From: Tabrizicola aquatica | Lineage (GTDB): Bacteria; Pseudomonadota; Alphaproteobacteria; Rhodobacterales; Rhodobacteraceae | Reading direction: 5' to 3' | Length of the DNA: 60,379 bases | Assembly (NCBI RefSeq): GCF_002900975.1 | Contig: NZ_PJON01000007.1 | Location: forward strand, 1 to 60,379 | Shown here: positions 47,228 through 57,423 of the stretch, in pieces | Position numbering within the stretch: position 1 is the stretch's first letter | Layout of the letters: the number at the start of each line of letters is the position of its first letter | Made by a program: the position numbers and the translations under genes | Notes under the pieces: generated by a model | What the model saw: only the letters and a program-made list of their open reading frames with translations | What the model was told of the DNA's origin: nothing | Databases searched by the model: none

Positions 47228-47622
47228 TTCGCTTCTCCTTGCCGGATGCGCCCCCGAAGCGAGAACGGGACGACCACGGCTTTTCTTGATTCTCATGGCC
47301 GGACTTGGCCACCGAGGGGCGATACAGGACGTGGCCCCGAAAAGCAAGGGTGAGGCTGTCCACGGTGGTCATCTGGACGATGCCCTTTGCTTCCAATGGG
47401 TTATGATTTTTCGTCAGGGTCTCGTTAACTAATCTGGGTCAGGCAAGGCTCGCCCCCTGCCTGATTGCAGCAGCGCGCCGCGGCAATGGTGCGCAAGAAC
47501 CTGCCGCTCTCTTGTCCGGCGCTTCACCGGTGTACTTCATCGCCGGAACACAAGCCACCTGAGCCGGTTCTTTGTTCCTGCTCATCAGAATTCGCTGGTG
47601 AGACGAAAGATGGAGAAGGACA
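47228..47622. other. Gap upstream of rplO containing the second 73-bp motif
   Basis: This 395-bp stretch lies between the divergent rplO and the small plus-strand gene. No gene is supported in it. It holds copy 2 of the 73-bp motif and must contain promoters for rplO (leftward) and for the small gene (rightward). Confidence 0.5.
47357..47429. repeat. 73-bp intergenic motif, copy 2
   Basis: Contains TGTCCACGGTGGTCA (47357-47371), TTCCAA (47391-47396), TTAT (47401-47404) and GTCAGGGTCTCGTTAAC (47413-47429). These match copy 1 at 31539-31611 block by block with the same spacing, while the bases between blocks differ. It lies between rplO and the small gene, so it could be a promoter or operator acting in either direction. 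Confidence 0.6.
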
Positions 47623-47817
47623 ATGGCGAACAATCAGAACCAGTCGGGTGGTCAATCGGGCGGCAAGTCCGGTGGCCAGTCTGCACGCAGCGATGCGGGT
47701 CAAGGCGACGTCAAGAACCCAGAGACCGACGGCCGCCTGAAAGAGAATGGCGGCGGCCAGCAAGGCCAAGGGGACGTCCGTGACAATAACGACGGCCGCC
47801 TCAAGCAGAACCGCTAA
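47623..47817 (+). CDS. Small Gly/Gln/Asn-rich hydrophilic protein
   Basis: A 64-residue protein with no hydrophobic segment, starting at an ATG with GGAGAAGGAC upstream. The N-terminus has SGGQSGGKSGGQS repeats. The rest holds two similar units, GDVKNPETDGRLKENGG and GDVRDNNDGRLKQN. Composition suggests a disordered, stress-type protein, but I recognise no family. It lies on the opposite strand inside the spc operon, between rpmD and rplO. Confidence 0.7.
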   Translation: MANNQNQSGGQSGGKSGGQSARSDAGQGDVKNPETDGRLKENGGGQQGQGDVRDNNDGRLKQNR

Positions 47818-47894
47818 GCCCCTCCAAACCAAATCGGTCGGCGCCCTGCCCTTGTGGTGGGGCGTCTGGATTCAAGGAACCAGGAAGAATGAGA

Positions 47895-47921
47895 AACGCC
47901 CCCGCTTTTGGCGAGGGCGTT
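47895..47921 (-). terminator. Terminator after rpmD
   Basis: AACGCCCCCGC (47895-47905) pairs with GCGAGGGCGTT (47911-47921) with one mismatch and a five-base loop. On the transcribed (minus) strand it is followed by TTTCTCATTCTT. It ends the rpsE-rpmD transcript before the small opposite-strand gene. Confidence 0.75.
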
Positions 47922-52261: not shown

Positions 52262-52344
52262 GCCGCTTCCTTTTCCACAATCGCCAGACGGCCCCTTCAG
52301 GAAGGGTCACCGAGGACCTGGCGGATCAATGACAAACCAACGAA

Positions 52345-52359
52345 TCCGGGAGCCCCGGA
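52345..52359 (-). terminator. Hairpin downstream of the rplP-rpmC insertion
   Basis: TCCGGG (52345-52350) pairs with CCCGGA (52354-52359) around three bases. On the minus strand it is followed by TTCGTTGGTTTGTC, a loose T-rich tail. It lies downstream of the C-rich tract after the unknown gene. A stronger hairpin with the same TTGGTTTGT-type tail follows the other insertion at 56419. Confidence 0.5.
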
Positions 52360-52380
52360 ATCGCTGGATGGCGTCGTATA

Positions 52381-52420
52381 GGGGGGAAGGGCGTGGGGGG
52401 CAAGGGGGAAGTTGGGGGGC
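52381..52420 (-). repeat. C-rich, G-poor transcript element (rut-like), copy 1
   Basis: On the plus strand this is five G-runs of 3-6 bases separated by short spacers. On the transcribed strand it is therefore a C-rich, G-poor RNA, the composition of a Rho utilisation site. It lies 20 bases after the stop of the unknown gene. The segment 52391-52432 matches 56471-56511 closely (shared TGGGGG, GGCAAGGGGG, TGGGGGG and GTCAGC blocks in order). The plus strand could also form a G-quadruplex. Confidence 0.6.
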
Positions 52421-52439
52421 TCATTAGTCAGCCGAGCCG

Positions 52440-52946
52440 TCATCGCGAAGTGGACCAACCAAGCAGAGCGAGCCAATCCGTGTGAGGGCCCACCATCTGC
52501 AGCAAACTGTCGTCAATGACACGCCCCTTCTTCAGTTCTTTCCGGCAACGGGCGACATACTCTTGGATTGCGTTCCAGACACGTTCGTTGGTCACCTGCT
52601 GGCCACGGCGAATATCAACTTCAGCCGCGAGCTTCCAAGTTCGATAAACGAACACTTTTGTCCGGCCCAGCATGTTCCTCTTCTTCTCAGCGCTGAAGTA
52701 TTCGCCGCGAACCTGACTACTGAGGAAGTATAACCTTATGTATCCAATGGTTTCATTGAAGCGCCACGGCCCAAATGCTTCGTATTGCCTTTGGCTCATT
52801 CCATCGACGGCTTCCTTGGTTGGGTCGTAACCGGGAATAGACTTTTGACGTTCTACCTGCGCGGCCAACCGTTGATCCATCAACGCGTTGTACTGATCGT
52901 AGCTGAGCCGATAGACGGGCAAGTCGTAGAAATAGACTGTGCTCAT
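52440..52946 (-). CDS. Unknown protein inserted between rplP and rpmC
   Basis: I do not recognise this 168-residue protein. It begins MSTVYFYDLPVYRLSYDQY, has many aromatic and charged residues, no signal peptide and no membrane segment, and is probably cytoplasmic and helical in its C-terminal half. Its base composition is clearly lower in GC than the ribosomal genes around it, which suggests transfer. It starts six bases after the oxygenase stop, so the two are co-transcribed, and it is followed by the C-rich element. Confidence 0.8.
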   Translation of the reverse strand: MSTVYFYDLPVYRLSYDQYNALMDQRLAAQVERQKSIPGYDPTKEAVDGMSQRQYEAFGPWRFNETIGYIRLYFLSSQVRGEYFSAEKKRNMLGRTKVFVYRTWKLAAEVDIRRGQQVTNERVWNAIQEYVARCRKELKKGRVIDDSLLQMVGPHTDWLALLGWSTSR

Positions 52947-52952
52947 TGTGCC

Positions 52953-53576
52953 TCACGACCACCCATAGTTGAAGCTGACCGAGATCCGCTCTTCCTCGGA
53001 CATGTTCATCGGGACTTCGTGGCGCAGCCAACTTTCCCACAGGAGAACCTCGCCCACCGCGGGTTTGACGTAGACGAAGCGCTGCAGCTCTTGCGGCGCG
53101 GTTTTCAGGGGCACGGGGGCCAGCATCATCATGGGCAGGCGGGGGTCCTCAAGCTTCAGCGCCGAGGTCCCTTCCGGCATCGCGACATAGGTCGTGCCCG
53201 AGATCACCGAATGTGGGTGGATGTGGCTGGCGTGGGTGCCGCCTTCGGGCAGGATGTTGATCCAGAGCGAATTGCACTTCAGCTTCTTGTCGCCCAGGTC
53301 GAAGCCGAGGTCCTTGCAGAAGGCGGCGACGTGCTTATCCAATGCCTTCTCCAGATCGCCGAAGATCGGCATCCGCCAGGGCAGGTCATCGAGCGAGGCA
53401 TAGGAAGTGTAGCCGGGATAGCCGTTCGCCTCGCACCACTCCTGCCCGGCCTCGTCATCCTCGGCCACCATGTCGCAGGTCTGGCGAAGTTCGGCGTAGT
53501 CGACCTTCTTCTTCGCCAGGTCATTGAGACCGGCACGGTAAAGGCGGGTGACGAAAAGGGAGGTGATTTCGGGCAT
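52953..53576 (-). CDS. Putative 2OG-Fe(II) oxygenase (2OG-FeII_Oxy_5 / TIGR02466-like)
   Basis: Predicted iron- and 2-oxoglutarate-dependent dioxygenase of 207 residues, cytoplasmic. It carries a histidine cluster H115, H118, H120, H122 in GTHASHIHPHSVISGTTYV. After a jelly-roll spacer comes H186 in LLWESWLRHEVPMN, and then R197 in ERISVSFNYGWS, which would bind 2-oxoglutarate. This arrangement fits the TIGR02466 family, whose substrate is unknown. It lies directly after rplP; a GGAG binding site is seven bases before its ATG, with only 21 bases between the rplP terminator and the start. Transcription therefore probably comes by read-through from the ribosomal operon. Confidence 0.82.
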   Translation of the reverse strand: MPEITSLFVTRLYRAGLNDLAKKKVDYAELRQTCDMVAEDDEAGQEWCEANGYPGYTSYASLDDLPWRMPIFGDLEKALDKHVAAFCKDLGFDLGDKKLKCNSLWINILPEGGTHASHIHPHSVISGTTYVAMPEGTSALKLEDPRLPMMMLAPVPLKTAPQELQRFVYVKPAVGEVLLWESWLRHEVPMNMSEEERISVSFNYGWS

Positions 53577-53597
53577 GGTCGGCTCCAGATTTGAAAA

Positions 53598-53623
53598 GGC
53601 CCCCGCCGTTTCCAGCGGGGGCC
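53598..53623 (-). terminator. Terminator after rplP
   Basis: A perfect 9-bp stem GGCCCCCGC (53598-53606) and GCGGGGGCC (53615-53623) has an eight-base loop. On the transcribed strand it is followed by TTTT. It splits the S10 operon after rplP. As no room for a promoter is left before the oxygenase gene, it is probably leaky. Confidence 0.85.
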
Positions 53624-53653
53624 GATATCGCAGGTCGGGGTTACCCCCGCCCC

Positions 53654-54067
53654 TTACCAGTCTTCCTTCGCGACGATGCGCGTGGTGACCGGGAGTTTCA
53701 TCGCGCCGAGACGCAGGGCCTCACGTGCGATTTCGTCGTTCACGCCGTCGATCTCGAACATGATCCGGCCGGGTTTGACCTTGGCCGCCCAGTAGTCGGT
53801 CGAGCCTTTGCCCTTACCCATACGAACTTCGACGGGCTTGGCCGAGACCGGGACATCCGGGAAAATCCGGATCCAGACCCGGCCCTGACGCTTCATGTGG
53901 CGGGTGATCGCGCGGCGGGCCGCTTCGATCTGCCGCGCGGTGACGCGCTCCGGCTCGGTCGCTTTCAGGGCGTAGGAGCCGAAGTTGATCAGGAACCCAC
54001 CCTTGGCTTCGCCATGGATGCGGCCCTTGTGCATCTTGCGGAACTTGGTGCGCTTTGGTTGCAGCAT
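53654..54067 (-). CDS. rplP: 50S ribosomal protein L16
   Basis: The 137-residue protein begins [20 protein letters not shown] and contains [20 protein letters not shown] and [14 protein letters not shown]82, in the VRMGKGKG loop, corresponds to the arginine that the oxygenase YcfD hydroxylates in E. coli L16. It follows rpsC after 13 bases and is followed by a terminator and an oxygenase gene instead of rpmC. Confidence 0.98.
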
Positions 54068-54080
54068 CTCATTCTACTCC

Positions 54081-54797
54081 TTACGCGCGTTCGCGGTCGC
54101 GGCGCGGACCACGGGGGGCCGGGCCGTCAGCCGCTTCGGCGAGACGACGATCATGGGCCTGCGGATCATGCTCAAGGATTTCGCCTTTGAAGATCCAGAC
54201 CTTCACACCGATGATCCCGTAGGGGGTCTCGGCTTCCGACAGCGCATAGTCGATGTCGGCACGAAGGGTGTGCAGGGGCACGCGGCCTTCGCGGTACCAT
54301 TCGGTCCGGGCGATTTCGGCGCCGCCCAGACGGCCGGCGACGTTCACACGGATACCAAGCGCACCCATCCGCATCGCGTTCTGCACGCCACGCTTCATCG
54401 CGCGACGGAAGGAGACGCGGCGCTCCATCTGCTGGGCGATCGACTCGGCCACCAGCTGGGCGTCAAGTTCCGGCTTGCGAACCTCGACGATGTTCAGGTG
54501 CAGTTCGGACTTGGTGAACACGGTCAGCTTCTTGCGGAGCGTCTCGATGTCCGCGCCCTTCTTGCCGATGATCACGCCCGGACGCGCAGTGTGAATGGTC
54601 ACACGGCACTTCTTGTGCGGACGCTCGATGATCACGCGGCTGATGCCGGCGGCCTTCAGCTCCTTGTGGATGAACTCGCGCATGCGGAGGTCTTCCAGCA
54701 GGAGATTGCCGTAGTCCTTGGATTCAGCGAACCAGCGGCTGTCCCAGGTGCGGTTGACCTGGAGGCGCATGCCGATCGGATTGACCTTCTGACCCAT
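54081..54797 (-). CDS. rpsC: 30S ribosomal protein S3
   Basis: The 238-residue protein begins [20 protein letters not shown] and has the KH-domain block [20 protein letters not shown], then the C-terminal domain with [20 protein letters not shown]. It overlaps the rplV stop by one base. Standard position in the S10 operon. Confidence 0.98.
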
Positions 54798-55177
54798 TAT
54801 GCGGACTCCCCGGCTTGACGGACCTTGATGGTGATTTCAGAGAACGGCTTCATGATCTTGCCGAACCGGCCACGAGCCCGCGGACGGCCCCGCTTCATCA
54901 CCAGGTTCTTGCCAACCCAGGCCTCGGCCACGATCAGGCTGTCGACGTCGAGGTTGTGGTTGTTCTCCGCGTTGGCGATTGCCGACTGGAGGCACTTCTT
55001 CACGTCACCCGCGATGCGGCGCTTGGAGAAGGTGAGGTCGGCCAGGGCCTTGTCCACCTTCTTGCCCCGGATCAGACCGGCGACGAGGTTCAGTTTCTGC
55101 GGCGAGGTGCGAAGCATGCGGAGGACCGCCATCGCTTCGTTGTCCGCCACGCGACGGGGGTTCTTTTCCGATCCCAT
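54797..55177 (-). CDS. rplV: 50S ribosomal protein L22
   Basis: The 126-residue protein contains [20 protein letters not shown] and the C-terminal [20 protein letters not shown] of L22, which lines the exit tunnel and is a site of macrolide resistance. No unusual insertion in the beta-hairpin is visible. It follows rpsS by three bases. Confidence 0.98.
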
Positions 55178-55180
55178 GGC

Positions 55181-55459
55181 TTACTTCCTCTTCGCTTTCT
55201 TGTCGGCGGCGTGACCGTAGTAGGTCCGCGTCGGCGAGTATTCACCGAACTTCTGGCCGATCATCTCCTCGGTCACGGCGACCGGGACGTGCTTCTTGCC
55301 GTTGTAGACCCCGAAGGTCAGACCAACGAACTGCGGCAGGATGGTGGACCGGCGCGACCAGATCTTGATCACTTCGGACTTGCCACCGGCCTTGGCCTTT
55401 TCGGCCTTCTTCAGGACGTAGCCGTCGACGAACGGGCCTTTCCAGATGGAACGTGCCAT
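55181..55459 (-). CDS. rpsS: 30S ribosomal protein S19
   Basis: The 92-residue protein begins [20 protein letters not shown] and has the block [20 protein letters not shown] and [17 protein letters not shown]. Standard S19, three bases after rplB. Confidence 0.98.
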
Positions 55460-55462
55460 GGA

Positions 55463-56302
55463 TTAACGCCCTTTCTTCTTGGCGTGGCGCGAGCGGACGA
55501 TCAGGCTGTCAGAAGCCTTCGGCTTGCGCGTCTTGTTGCCCTTGGTGCCTTTGCCCCACGGGGTAACCGGGTGACGGCCGCCCGAGGTACGGCCTTCGCC
55601 GCCGCCATGCGGGTGGTCGATCGGGTTCATCGCGACGCCGCGGACCGTCGGGCGGATGCCCTTGTGGCGCATACGTCCGGCTTTACCGAAGTTCTGGTTC
55701 GAGTTGTCCGGGTTCGACACGGCACCGATGGTGGCCATGCATTCCTGACGGACCATCCGCAGTTCGCCCGACGAAAGGCGGATCTGCGCGTAAGAGCCGT
55801 CACGGCCGACGAACTGGGCATAGGTGCCCGCCGCACGGGCCAACTGGCCCCCCTTGCCGGGCTTCAGCTCGACGTTGTGGACGATGGTACCGATCGGCAT
55901 GCCGCTGAACGGCATCGCGTTCCCCGGCTTCACGTCGGTCTTCGCGCCAGCGATGACGCTGTCGCCCACGGCCAGGCGCTGCGGCGCCAGGATATAGGCC
56001 AGTTCACCGTCCTGGTACTTGACCAGCGCGATGAAGGCGGTGCGGTTCGGGTCATATTCGATCCGCTCGACGACCGCCGGGATATCATATTTGCGACGCT
56101 TGAAATCGACCACCCGGTAGAGACGCTTGGCGCCCCCGCCCTGGTGAAACATCGTGATCCGCCCGGTGTTGTTCCGGCCGCCAGTACGGTTCAAACCCTC
56201 GGTGAGGTGCTTGACCGGGCGGCCTTTCCACAGCTCCGAACGGTCGATCAGAACCAACCCACGTTGGCCAGGCGTCGTCGGCTTATACGACTTGAGTGCC
56301 AT
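55463..56302 (-). CDS. rplB: 50S ribosomal protein L2
   Basis: The 279-residue protein begins [20 protein letters not shown] and has the catalytic-core block [20 protein letters not shown] near the C-terminus. It should follow rplW directly. Here a 1.1-kb insertion with terminators on both sides lies upstream, so rplB-rpsS-rplV-rpsC-rplP must start from a promoter within 56303-56418. Confidence 0.98.
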
Positions 56303-56418
56303 GTTCTCTGTCTTCCGTTTGCTTGCACGGGTGTTGCCACCCGGCGGTGAAGGGCTCCGAAGATCCCCGATTTAGTGTCCGTTCCTTTTGCGGCTGCATC
56401 GGGAACGAACAAACCAAG

Positions 56419-56440
56419 AGCCCCGGACGAATCCGGGGCT
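56419..56440 (-). terminator. Terminator downstream of the rplW-rplB insertion
   Basis: A perfect 9-bp stem AGCCCCGGA (56419-56427) and TCCGGGGCT (56432-56440) has a four-base loop. On the transcribed strand it is followed by CTTGGTTTGTTCGTTCC. It lies after the C-rich element and before rplB, ending the transcript of the inserted gene. Confidence 0.78.
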
Positions 56441-56450
56441 GCTGGCGTGG

Positions 56451-56499
56451 CGGGGGAGTAGCAGAGGGGGGTGGGGGTGGCAAGGGGGAGATGGGGGGA
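56451..56499 (-). repeat. C-rich, G-poor transcript element (rut-like), copy 2
   Basis: On the plus strand this is a run of G-tracts of 5-6 bases; on the transcript it is C-rich and almost free of G. The part 56471-56511 aligns with 52391-52432 after the other insertion, and both are followed by a GC-rich hairpin with a T-rich tail. The stop of the inserted gene lies 93 bases upstream on the transcript. Confidence 0.6.
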
Positions 56500-56592
56500 T
56501 TCTATGTCAGCAGTCCCAAAGACGGTTTGCGCTGTTGCAGCTGCGTCGAAGGGAAGGATGGGGACGCGCGTGGACGATAGGGTTTCTGACCC

Positions 56593-57315
56593 TCAAAGGC
56601 CCTGCGAAGTCGCGCAGGTCAGGAAACGGGTCACGTCATCTTGTATGCGACGCCAGTTGGGGAGTTCAAAAAGATCGTAGCTGAGCTTAACATCCAGACC
56701 AGCAGCAGAAAAGAAGTGCTTGCATCCTGGATTTAGAACAGCGCCAGCAATGTGGCAATTGAGGATGGCTGATGGAGTGCCGCGTGACTCTTCAGAAATA
56801 TAGATTGTCTTTTGAGGTGGATTCTGATCGTGCGCCTCTTCACTGGGAGACTCAATTTCCTTGAGGCCAAATGGTCCGGGCATTCGAACATAGTTTTCTA
56901 GCGGTCGGTCAGGATTTCCTCCACGAATGAACAGTTCTGCCTGAAGCGGCGCAAGTTTCTCCATCGGTATATGATCTGAAACCAAAATTTTCAGGAGACT
57001 ACGAAGGCCTTTCTTCTGTCGTTCAGCCGTTTCCGGGCGAGTGACTGGCAGAAAGCTTCCGATCTCGACTCTAAAGAGTTGCGCCGTATCGCGGAAGCCA
57101 TCCTTCCGGTCCCAAGGGTCTTCGAAATAGTGGATCGGGACACGCATCGGCACCTCACGGTGCTCCAGCTGCATGACGATCGTGTGGTTGACGTAGGTCG
57201 CGTCCTCGGTAAATGCCCAGCAGGGATCAAAGTCATTGGGAATCGGGGTTGGCACGCCTTCGGCATGTGAATTAGTCGCCATACCAAATAAAAGGATGGA
57301 AAGGATCAGGCGCAT
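56593..57315 (-). CDS. Unknown exported protein inserted between rplW and rplB
   Basis: I do not recognise this 240-residue protein. From the ATG at 57315 it begins with a signal peptide MRLILSILLFGMATNSHAEG, so it is probably periplasmic or outer-membrane associated. It contains three cysteines after the signal (CWAF, NCHIAG, GCKHFF) plus one near the end (LTCATS), which could form disulfides. Its GC content is visibly lower than that of the flanking ribosomal genes and its codon use is different, so it is likely acquired. Terminators flank it on both sides, and a promoter must lie in 57316-57364. Confidence 0.78.
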   Translation of the reverse strand: MRLILSILLFGMATNSHAEGVPTPIPNDFDPCWAFTEDATYVNHTIVMQLEHREVPMRVPIHYFEDPWDRKDGFRDTAQLFRVEIGSFLPVTRPETAERQKKGLRSLLKILVSDHIPMEKLAPLQAELFIRGGNPDRPLENYVRMPGPFGLKEIESPSEEAHDQNPPQKTIYISEESRGTPSAILNCHIAGAVLNPGCKHFFSAAGLDVKLSYDLFELPNWRRIQDDVTRFLTCATSQGL

Positions 57316-57364
57316 CGAACACCAAAGTTGGCAGCTGTTCAACGTAGAGATCGCACAGATTTTG

Positions 57365-57398
57365 AAAAACAAAAAGCCCCCGCCTTCCGGCAGGGGCT
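57365..57398 (-). terminator. Terminator after rplW
   Basis: AGCCCCCGCC (57375-57384) pairs with GGCAGGGGCT (57389-57398), one mismatch, four-base loop. On the transcribed strand it is followed by TTTTTGTTTTT. This is the strongest intrinsic terminator in the window and stops the tuf-rpsJ-rplC-rplD-rplW transcript. Confidence 0.9.
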
Positions 57399-57423
57399 CT
57401 CTCATTTCACTCAAGCCTAAGGC

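Follow-up and report, generated by a model that had tools for sequence, protein, structure and literature searches.

The S10-spc superoperon is among the most conserved rows of genes in bacteria and is normally unbroken. What allows such a row to be cut, and what are the genes found in the cuts? The question is raised by a stretch of 60,379 bp from Tabrizicola aquatica (contig NZ_PJON01000007.1, positions 1 to 60,379; hereafter the window), in which the row is interrupted between rplW and rplB, between rplP and rpmC, and between rpmD and rplO. The original prediction, which concerned the first two of these seams, described moron-like cassettes of low-GC genes, each carrying its own end element, a C-rich tract followed by a hairpin, that would stop the cassette's transcript ahead of the next ribosomal block. 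From the comparison of relatives described below, we consider it likely that the superoperon in most Rhodobacteraceae examined is organized as four transcription units, the seams of which tolerate turnover of cargo genes. The earlier reading appears to have taken the promoter and leader of the next block for the end of the cargo.

Results

The order of genes on the minus strand of the window is tuf, rpsJ, rplC, rplD, rplW, [gap], rplB, rpsS, rplV, rpsC, rplP, [gap], rpmC to rpmD, [gap], rplO, secY, adk, rpsM, rpsK, rpoA, rplQ. On that strand rplW (57744-57424) and rplB (56302-55463) are separated by an open reading frame (ORF) of 240 amino acids (56593-57315), and rplP and rpmC by an oxygenase gene (53576-52953) together with an ORF of 168 amino acids (52946-52440). 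The third gap, of 743 bp between rpmD and rplO (47976-47234), lies beyond the region that the original prediction covered. A low-GC gene between rplW and rplB was present as described, with a signal-peptide-like start by eye. The description of both interruptions as low in GC holds for the 240- and 168-residue genes, neither of which has a family (GC content 0.50-0.54 in 400-base windows), and fails for the oxygenase, which at 0.59-0.63 has the same GC content as the neighbouring ribosomal genes.

DNA upstream of rplB and rpmC was compared among 16 further genomes of the genus and the 80 named genomes nearest by rplB, the closest of which include Tabrizicola sp. and Rhodobacter calidifons (97%). 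With four duplicate loci and the same-family lineages G032 and G035 left out of the counts, the gap exceeded 300 bp in 42 of 83 loci at rplW|rplB and in 56 of 72 at rplP|rpmC; at 17 other junctions this was the case in 0 of 1210 measurements. Among 40 further loci the same threshold was passed in 16/34 at rplW|rplB, 29/36 at rplP|rpmC and 23/34 at rpmD|rplO, or in 16/33, 28/35 and 23/33, respectively, in the 39 genomes that remain when one locus with an rplB identical to that of a first-set locus is removed. In these further loci tuf|rpsJ was widened in 2/23 and adk|rpsM in 3/27, and 20 other junctions were never widened. The third gap measured 359-4485 bp in 15 loci including the window, and up to 5134 bp in further relatives. 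All three seams span 2-108 bp in six other loci, four of them outside the family and the remaining two being G032 and G035. Both originally named seams vary among the Rhodobacteraceae examined, each being wide in many genomes and compact in others.

The states of the rplB and rpmC seams were also placed on a tree of 95 loci built from concatenated ribosomal proteins, with G032 and G035 omitted from the counts. Of 82 loci scored at rplB, 42 were split and 40 compact, requiring at least 16 changes; at rpmC, 56 loci carried cargo and 16 did not, requiring at least 14. Two loci, L150 and L156, are compact though placed among split relatives. Elsewhere in the row, widened adk|rpsM junctions measured 658 bp (L200), 363 bp (L203) and 390 bp (L209), and 1045 bp in a locus outside the family (L215); at rplC|rplD and rplR|rpsE, many loci have a spacer of about 100-200 bp that other genomes lack.

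Such a distribution could arise by neutral intergenic drift, the seams being plain operon boundaries without any special feature at which any gene may land. The occasional widening of adk|rpsM and tuf|rpsJ would fit this explanation, as would the miscellaneous cargo families among the matches listed. Against it stand the recurrence of the same three seams, each of them wide in roughly half of the genera or more where 20 other junctions are wide in none, and the persistence of an oxygenase of family TIGR02466, which occupies the rplP|rpmC slot in 40 of 56 cases. We regard drift as rather unlikely.

On the upstream side of the cargo, each seam of the window begins with a terminator-like hairpin on the minus strand. 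The hairpin after rplW (57374..57399; -23.8 kcal/mol) is followed by a T-rich tail (57373-57364), and that after rplP (53598..53623) folds with -27.5 kcal/mol; in neither case was any of 200 shuffles as stable. These results agree with the strong terminators claimed 5' of both insertions, termination itself being a prediction. At the third seam a terminator-like hairpin after rpmD (47893..47920) was read from the sequence. Of the 13 cargo-bearing genus members compared, 11 have a near-identical rplW-side hairpin and 2 a variant of it, and sequences diverge right behind it; hairpins similar to that after rplP are present in genus loci.

On the downstream side, the two C-rich tracts of the original prediction were found where it had placed them, and their shared pattern is not a chance match. 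Aligned locally, the two end regions scored 40, compared with 20.0 +/- 3.1 in shuffles (0/1000 as high), and the tracts by themselves scored 39, compared with 26.2 +/- 4.1 (9/1000 as high). The tracts appear to contain sigma70-type promoters of the next ribosomal block. All three predicted promoters of the window lie on the minus strand: that of rplB (56455..56483) consists of TTGCCA (56483-56478), a 17-bp spacer and TACTCC (56460-56455), that of rpmC (52375..52403) of TTGCCC (52403-52398), a 17-bp spacer and TATACG (52380-52375), and that of rplO (47319..47347) of TTGCTT, a 17-bp spacer and TATCGC. Each combines a TTG in the -35 element, a spacer of about 17 bp and a TA-rich -10 element, as expected of sigma70 promoters.

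These features are fixed across loci, and for this reason the tract is read as a promoter. When rpmC loci were scanned for CTTGCC with spacers of 14-20, a spacer of 17 was found in 57/72, other spacers only in 2 and none in 13. Among the 63 of 72 loci that carry TTGCC-N18-TA, column values were 0.92 for C at -1, 0.87 and 0.79 for bases three and four of the -10 element and 0.90-0.95 for the CATC that follows it; T at -7 occurred in 0/63. Columns beyond about 13 bases upstream held at most 0.2 bits; in the genus conservation likewise ends some 15-25 bases upstream of the -35 element, as it does at rpmC across the 63 loci. At rplB, the hairpin motif discussed below was found in 52 of 55 split or unknown-gap loci, and T[ATG]G[AC]C-N18-TA in all 52 of those, with the TA 20-23 bases ahead of the motif; TGG or TAG replaces TTG in 20 of the 52. 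Further split seams had the 17-bp spacing in 20/29 cases at rpmC (0.2 expected from shuffles), 13/16 at rplB (about 0.1 expected) and 22/23 at rplO (0.2 expected); rplO matches with a spacer of 19 probably reflect a second TA of the same -10 element. Spacing counts made without an anchor also peak at 17, including 23/31 in one set.

Simpler searches were less clear. A genome-wide search with the tract, allowing up to 3 mismatches, gave 245 matches, compared with 87 for the reversed pattern, and the only matches free of mismatches were the two of the window. The pattern CTTGCC-N16-18-CTATAC matched twice, as did the control; with equal counts the hexamers by themselves identify nothing, and the case for promoters rests on comparison between loci. 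When an E. coli-like consensus was used for scanning, the best spacer was 17 at rpmC (45.1 of 65) and 15 at rplB (22.7, compared with 12.5 for 17, of 43), and 8 matches were reached by 72% and 79% of observed sites, compared with 27% and 37% of shuffles. The family's own variants of the -35 element may explain this outcome.

The original prediction had instead taken the tract for a site of Rho loading. Combined with the hairpin behind it, the tract would form a terminator, both Rho-dependent and intrinsic, at which each cargo transcript stops. The window's rplB and rpmC tracts are indeed C-rich and G-poor, and the spacer is C-rich in the genus; the two tracts are similar, T-tailed hairpins follow them, and read-through from the cargo would cross them. 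However, what stays constant is the -35 element, the TA and the 17-bp spacing, with random sequence further upstream; at least four G residues occur in the spacer of 12/52 rplB and 14/63 rpmC promoters, and the window's rplO spacer contains G. As the spacers are not constantly G-poor, Rho loading is unlikely as a shared function, and we rejected it as a conserved role; it may still act in this genome. The rpmC tract is also found without cargo, for example in L147, where the gap is 262 bp, and is missing in 4 first-set loci with gaps below 130 bp. This presence without cargo, together with the place of the tract as the downstream block's predicted promoter, speaks against cassettes with an end element of their own.

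The hairpins behind the predicted promoters point in the same direction. Ahead of rplB, the 5' untranslated region contains a hairpin, AGCCCCGGATTCGTCCGGGGCT, with a T-rich tail (56419..56440, minus strand; -16.1 kcal/mol; 14/200 shuffles as stable), and ahead of rpmC a hairpin with CGGATTCG, then TTGGTTTGT (52340..52365, minus strand; -15.2 kcal/mol; 6/200 shuffles as stable). By folding against 200 shuffles these downstream hairpins are moderate and the upstream hairpins strong. In the 53 scanned seams whose gap is split or unknown, the rplB promoter is closely followed by a GC hairpin (median -17.5 kcal/mol; 34 have four or more T among the 8 bases behind it). In 40/40 compact loci such a hairpin comes immediately after rplW (median -26; 23 have four or more T among the 8 bases behind it). 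Next to the window's rplB hairpin lies the L2-Alphaproteobacteria ribosomal leader RF03142 (56305..56368, minus strand; 53.8 bits, compared with a gathering threshold of 37.8), which was found in 12/12 loci of both seam states and in 4/5 of another locus set. Because the hairpin stands without cargo and has RF03142 beside it, we assign it to the rplB leader region rather than to the cargo; it may nonetheless act as a terminator or attenuator. Its presence in every compact locus, and the loss of conservation upstream of the -35 element, are at odds with an element that serves as the cargo's own stop, and we consider termination of the cargo by a combined Rho and intrinsic element improbable. 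In the available part of PMC7247131, rplB, rpsS, rplV and rpsC are named as genes regulated by RF03142, and the motif is rated '?'; the words rpmC, L29 and promoter are not found in its main text.

Candidate leaders follow the predicted promoters of the other two blocks as well. The candidate leader of rpmC (52279..52327, minus strand; 49 bases) covaries and has no Rfam match. In an alignment of 64 of the 72 loci, 98.2% of 768 cells form standard pairs and two-sided changes occur in 8 of 12 pairs, compared with 35-53% paired cells in slid controls. Of the 8 loci left out, L090, L096 and L127, which have the shortest gaps, appear on visual inspection to be without the motif. A model, R1, derived from 57 of the aligned sequences, matches 114 of 149 genomes of the family, once in each, leaving 35 without a match, and 2 of 142 genomes of the class, namely the window's own and one other of the Rhodobacteraceae; rpmC directly follows the match in 31/31 fetched loci. 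The candidate leader of rplO (47241..47280, minus strand) covaries in an alignment of 23 of 25 loci, with 95.6% of 250 cells paired (slid controls 28-58%). Two-sided changes affect 5 of its 11 pairs, a level that 2/500 shuffles reach; the sequences searched gave no Rfam match. Both are covarying structures 5' of a ribosomal-protein gene, as is expected of ribosomal-protein leaders, and from position and structure they may bind ribosomal proteins.

The cargo between the predicted terminators and promoters differs widely from genome to genome. Among ORFs of at least 110 amino acids, 50 of 55 in rplW|rplB slots and 60 of 118 in rplP|rpmC slots lacked a BLASTP partner at 1e-5 in a set of 173 ORFs; these counts are upper bounds and include antisense frames in GC-rich DNA. 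In L151 and L152, loci of sister species, the flanks are 95% and 98% identical and the cargo is unrelated from +53 of rplW to -196 of rplB. Locus L153 has the window's oxygenase and 168-residue gene at about 93% DNA identity (compared with window 53654-52262) in an otherwise collinear slot, with about 1.7 kb of extra DNA directly behind the rplP terminator. Slots were below the core in GC in 44/54 cases at rplW|rplB and in 56/84 at rplP|rpmC. Searches with Pfam, PADLOC and PHROGs returned mixed families, nearly all with one or two members among the matches listed (in the longest lists, 25 of 38 and 25 of 40 families). Exchange probably took place by homologous recombination across the long conserved ribosomal flanks.

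An alternative is that the cassettes are mobile units, inserted at terminator hairpins by a site-specific enzyme and bringing their own terminator and promoter along. At rplW|rplB within the genus, a locus has either all of terminator, cargo and promoter or none of them, and both edges are sharp, the extra DNA in L153 lies right behind the rplP terminator, and the rplW-slot set includes integrase-core families (among the families listed) and five transposase PHROG families, one member each. Such genes nonetheless make up at most a handful of the 55 ORFs, as judged from the families listed; the rpmC promoter occurs without cargo; and sharp edges are also predicted by selection that keeps terminator and promoter. 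We hold this alternative for no more probable than the Rho element. Two other classes of element were considered. A phage moron is expected in a prophage or among phage genes; here the flanks are ribosomal and the window's cargos, as scanned, had no PHROG match. In the rplW-slot set the matches to 24 PHROG families cover no more than 25 of the 55 ORFs. Few of these families have named phage functions, and structural ones are scarce, with two head-maturation-protease families of one member each. The slots do not resemble a defence island either, with 3 PADLOC families among the 55 rplW-slot ORFs and 4 among 73 rplP-slot sequences, one member each, where the latter are the window's 168-residue protein plus 72 of the 118 slot ORFs and leave out most oxygenase frames.

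The 240-residue protein of the window's rplW|rplB seam has no Pfam or NCBIfam family above cut-off. Its AlphaFold model (predicted local distance difference test, pLDDT, 88) resembled, in Foldseek, 6pdk (E 5.8e-9, template modelling (TM) score 0.55) and 5edf (E 1.1e-5, TM about 0.5), that is, the immunity protein Smlt3025 and FrpD, which partners the RTX protein FrpC. The 47 database relatives include none with a named function, and matches occurred in 4/121 genomes, its own included, one of them partial. In L197 (3894-8636) a relative lies directly upstream of a gene for a protein of 1302 residues with RTX-like repeats and an ABC-transporter-like gene, both identified by eye; at a contig end in L191 (1342-2466), the truncated frame after a relative starts like the RTX protein of L197. 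The window has no cognate RTX or effector gene downstream of the cargo, and inspection by eye showed no lipobox cysteine in the leader peptide. The available text of PMC6759196 links Smlt3025 with FrpD and describes the immunity gene as lying ahead of the effector gene. From the fold match, the relative next to an RTX gene and this gene order, we lean slightly towards reading the 240-residue cargo as an orphan immunity gene.

The oxygenase of the rplP|rpmC seam (52953..53576, minus strand) is a 2-oxoglutarate (2OG)-Fe(II) oxygenase of TIGR02466 / PF13759 (269.9 bits, compared with a cut-off of 62.5). Its family occupies 40 of 56 complete cargo-bearing slots, in the sense of the operon in 28 and reversed in 12, and 23 of 29 slots in the further loci. 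In most cargo-bearing slots it stays beside rplP while other cargo changes. This position recalls the L16 hydroxylases, and the enzyme is possibly a ribosomal oxygenase. The 168-residue protein (52440..52946, minus strand) has no Pfam or NCBIfam match, and its model (pLDDT 90) has no fold match in the PDB at E<=0.001; the gene was found in 2/121 genomes, its own included, both times in the rplP|rpmC slot. The variable part of the rpmD|rplO seam (47360..47890) contains two ORFs of 64 amino acids, at 47439-47633 (-) and 47623-47817 (+). The latter is hydrophilic, runs antisense to the operon and repeats the stretch DGRLK.

Discussion

Taken together, these data argue that the S10-spc row of most Rhodobacteraceae examined is split at fixed seams, rplW|rplB, rplP|rpmC and rpmD|rplO, not all of which are open in every genome. 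Each block would end in a terminator-like hairpin, and the next would start with a sigma70-type promoter (a -35 element of TTGNC or a variant, a 17-bp spacer, a TA-rich -10 element without T at -7) followed by a structured ribosomal-protein leader. The DNA from terminator to promoter would be under little constraint, so that accessory genes could be gained, lost and replaced there. In the window, one seam would hold a probable orphan immunity gene of the FrpD type, and the next the oxygenase and the 168-residue gene without a family. The insulation and local restart of the ribosomal blocks, as originally proposed, is on this evidence probable, with a terminator-like hairpin before the cargo and a predicted promoter before the next block. 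As for the suggestion that two copies of the element mean a common origin or a common mode of insertion, the data favour a common mode of seam occupation and give no support to common descent of the two cargos.

Several observations weigh against this interpretation. The 40 further loci, one per genus, were picked among genomes with a match to the rpmC leader, and 4 of the 40 are compact at all three seams. G032 and G035, coded as the same family, are compact throughout, with 27 and 34 bp at rplW|rplB and no R1 match. A loose promoter pattern is also found in 7/40 and 4/16 compact rplB seams and is missed in 5/43 and 1/17 split ones. Upstream hairpins with dG < -10 and at least four T residues occur in only 16/42 (rplW) and 28/56 (rplP) cargo-bearing seams, so that termination may often be weak. 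Slots at rpmD|rplO are not low in GC (8/20 below core, p 0.73).

The three-seam layout is a larger finding than two insertions. A superoperon that has been cut and refilled gives hints as to what may hold the row together, namely one transcript and one feedback, and what lets it part, a local promoter and a leader. As cargo differs in nearly every species examined, the slots are suited to watching gene turnover and to seeking orphan immunity genes and other fast-moving genes, and the two leaders absent from Rfam, those of rpmC and rplO, are testable candidate regulators. More tentatively, the seams could be standing sites of gene capture, in which ribosomal sequences provide homology arms between species, the layout of terminator, promoter and leader makes the cargo harmless, selection loads the slots with single genes that change fast, orphan immunity genes among them, and the rpmC and rplO leaders balance the blocks by feedback; we offer this as a possibility that is less likely than its converse.

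Searches of the literature on S10 insertions, hotspots, split operons, rplW/rplB order, rpmC starts and rplO leaders gave no title or abstract opening on these seams, within a coverage that lacks most subscription journals. The available part of PMC2704228 contains nothing bearing on them, and that of PMC8407463 nothing on start sites at these seams.

Comparison with known systems places the individual parts. The rplB seam carries the same leader as that described, in the text available, in PMC7247131. According to the accessible portion of PMC8407463, most alphaproteobacterial promoters lack T at -7; the seam promoters share with these sigma70 promoters the -35 TTG triad and a -10 element without T at -7, and differ from them in the 20 of 52 rplB sites that have TGG or TAG for TTG. 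Like Smlt3025 and FrpD, as presented in the part of PMC6759196 at hand, the 240-residue cargo has a predicted immunity-protein fold and a relative just upstream of an RTX-type gene; unlike in those systems, the window gene stands alone, with neither an RTX gene nor a visible lipobox cysteine. For the row as a whole, a published survey of 163 alterations of the ribosomal operon cluster likewise describes, as far as its available text goes, accessory genes that enter and loosen a conserved cluster. The events reported in that text consist of small pieces inserted between operons or within the rpoBC operon, and of ribosomal genes that were lost or replaced, whereas the insertions described here occupy fixed seams inside S10-spc and differ from species to species.

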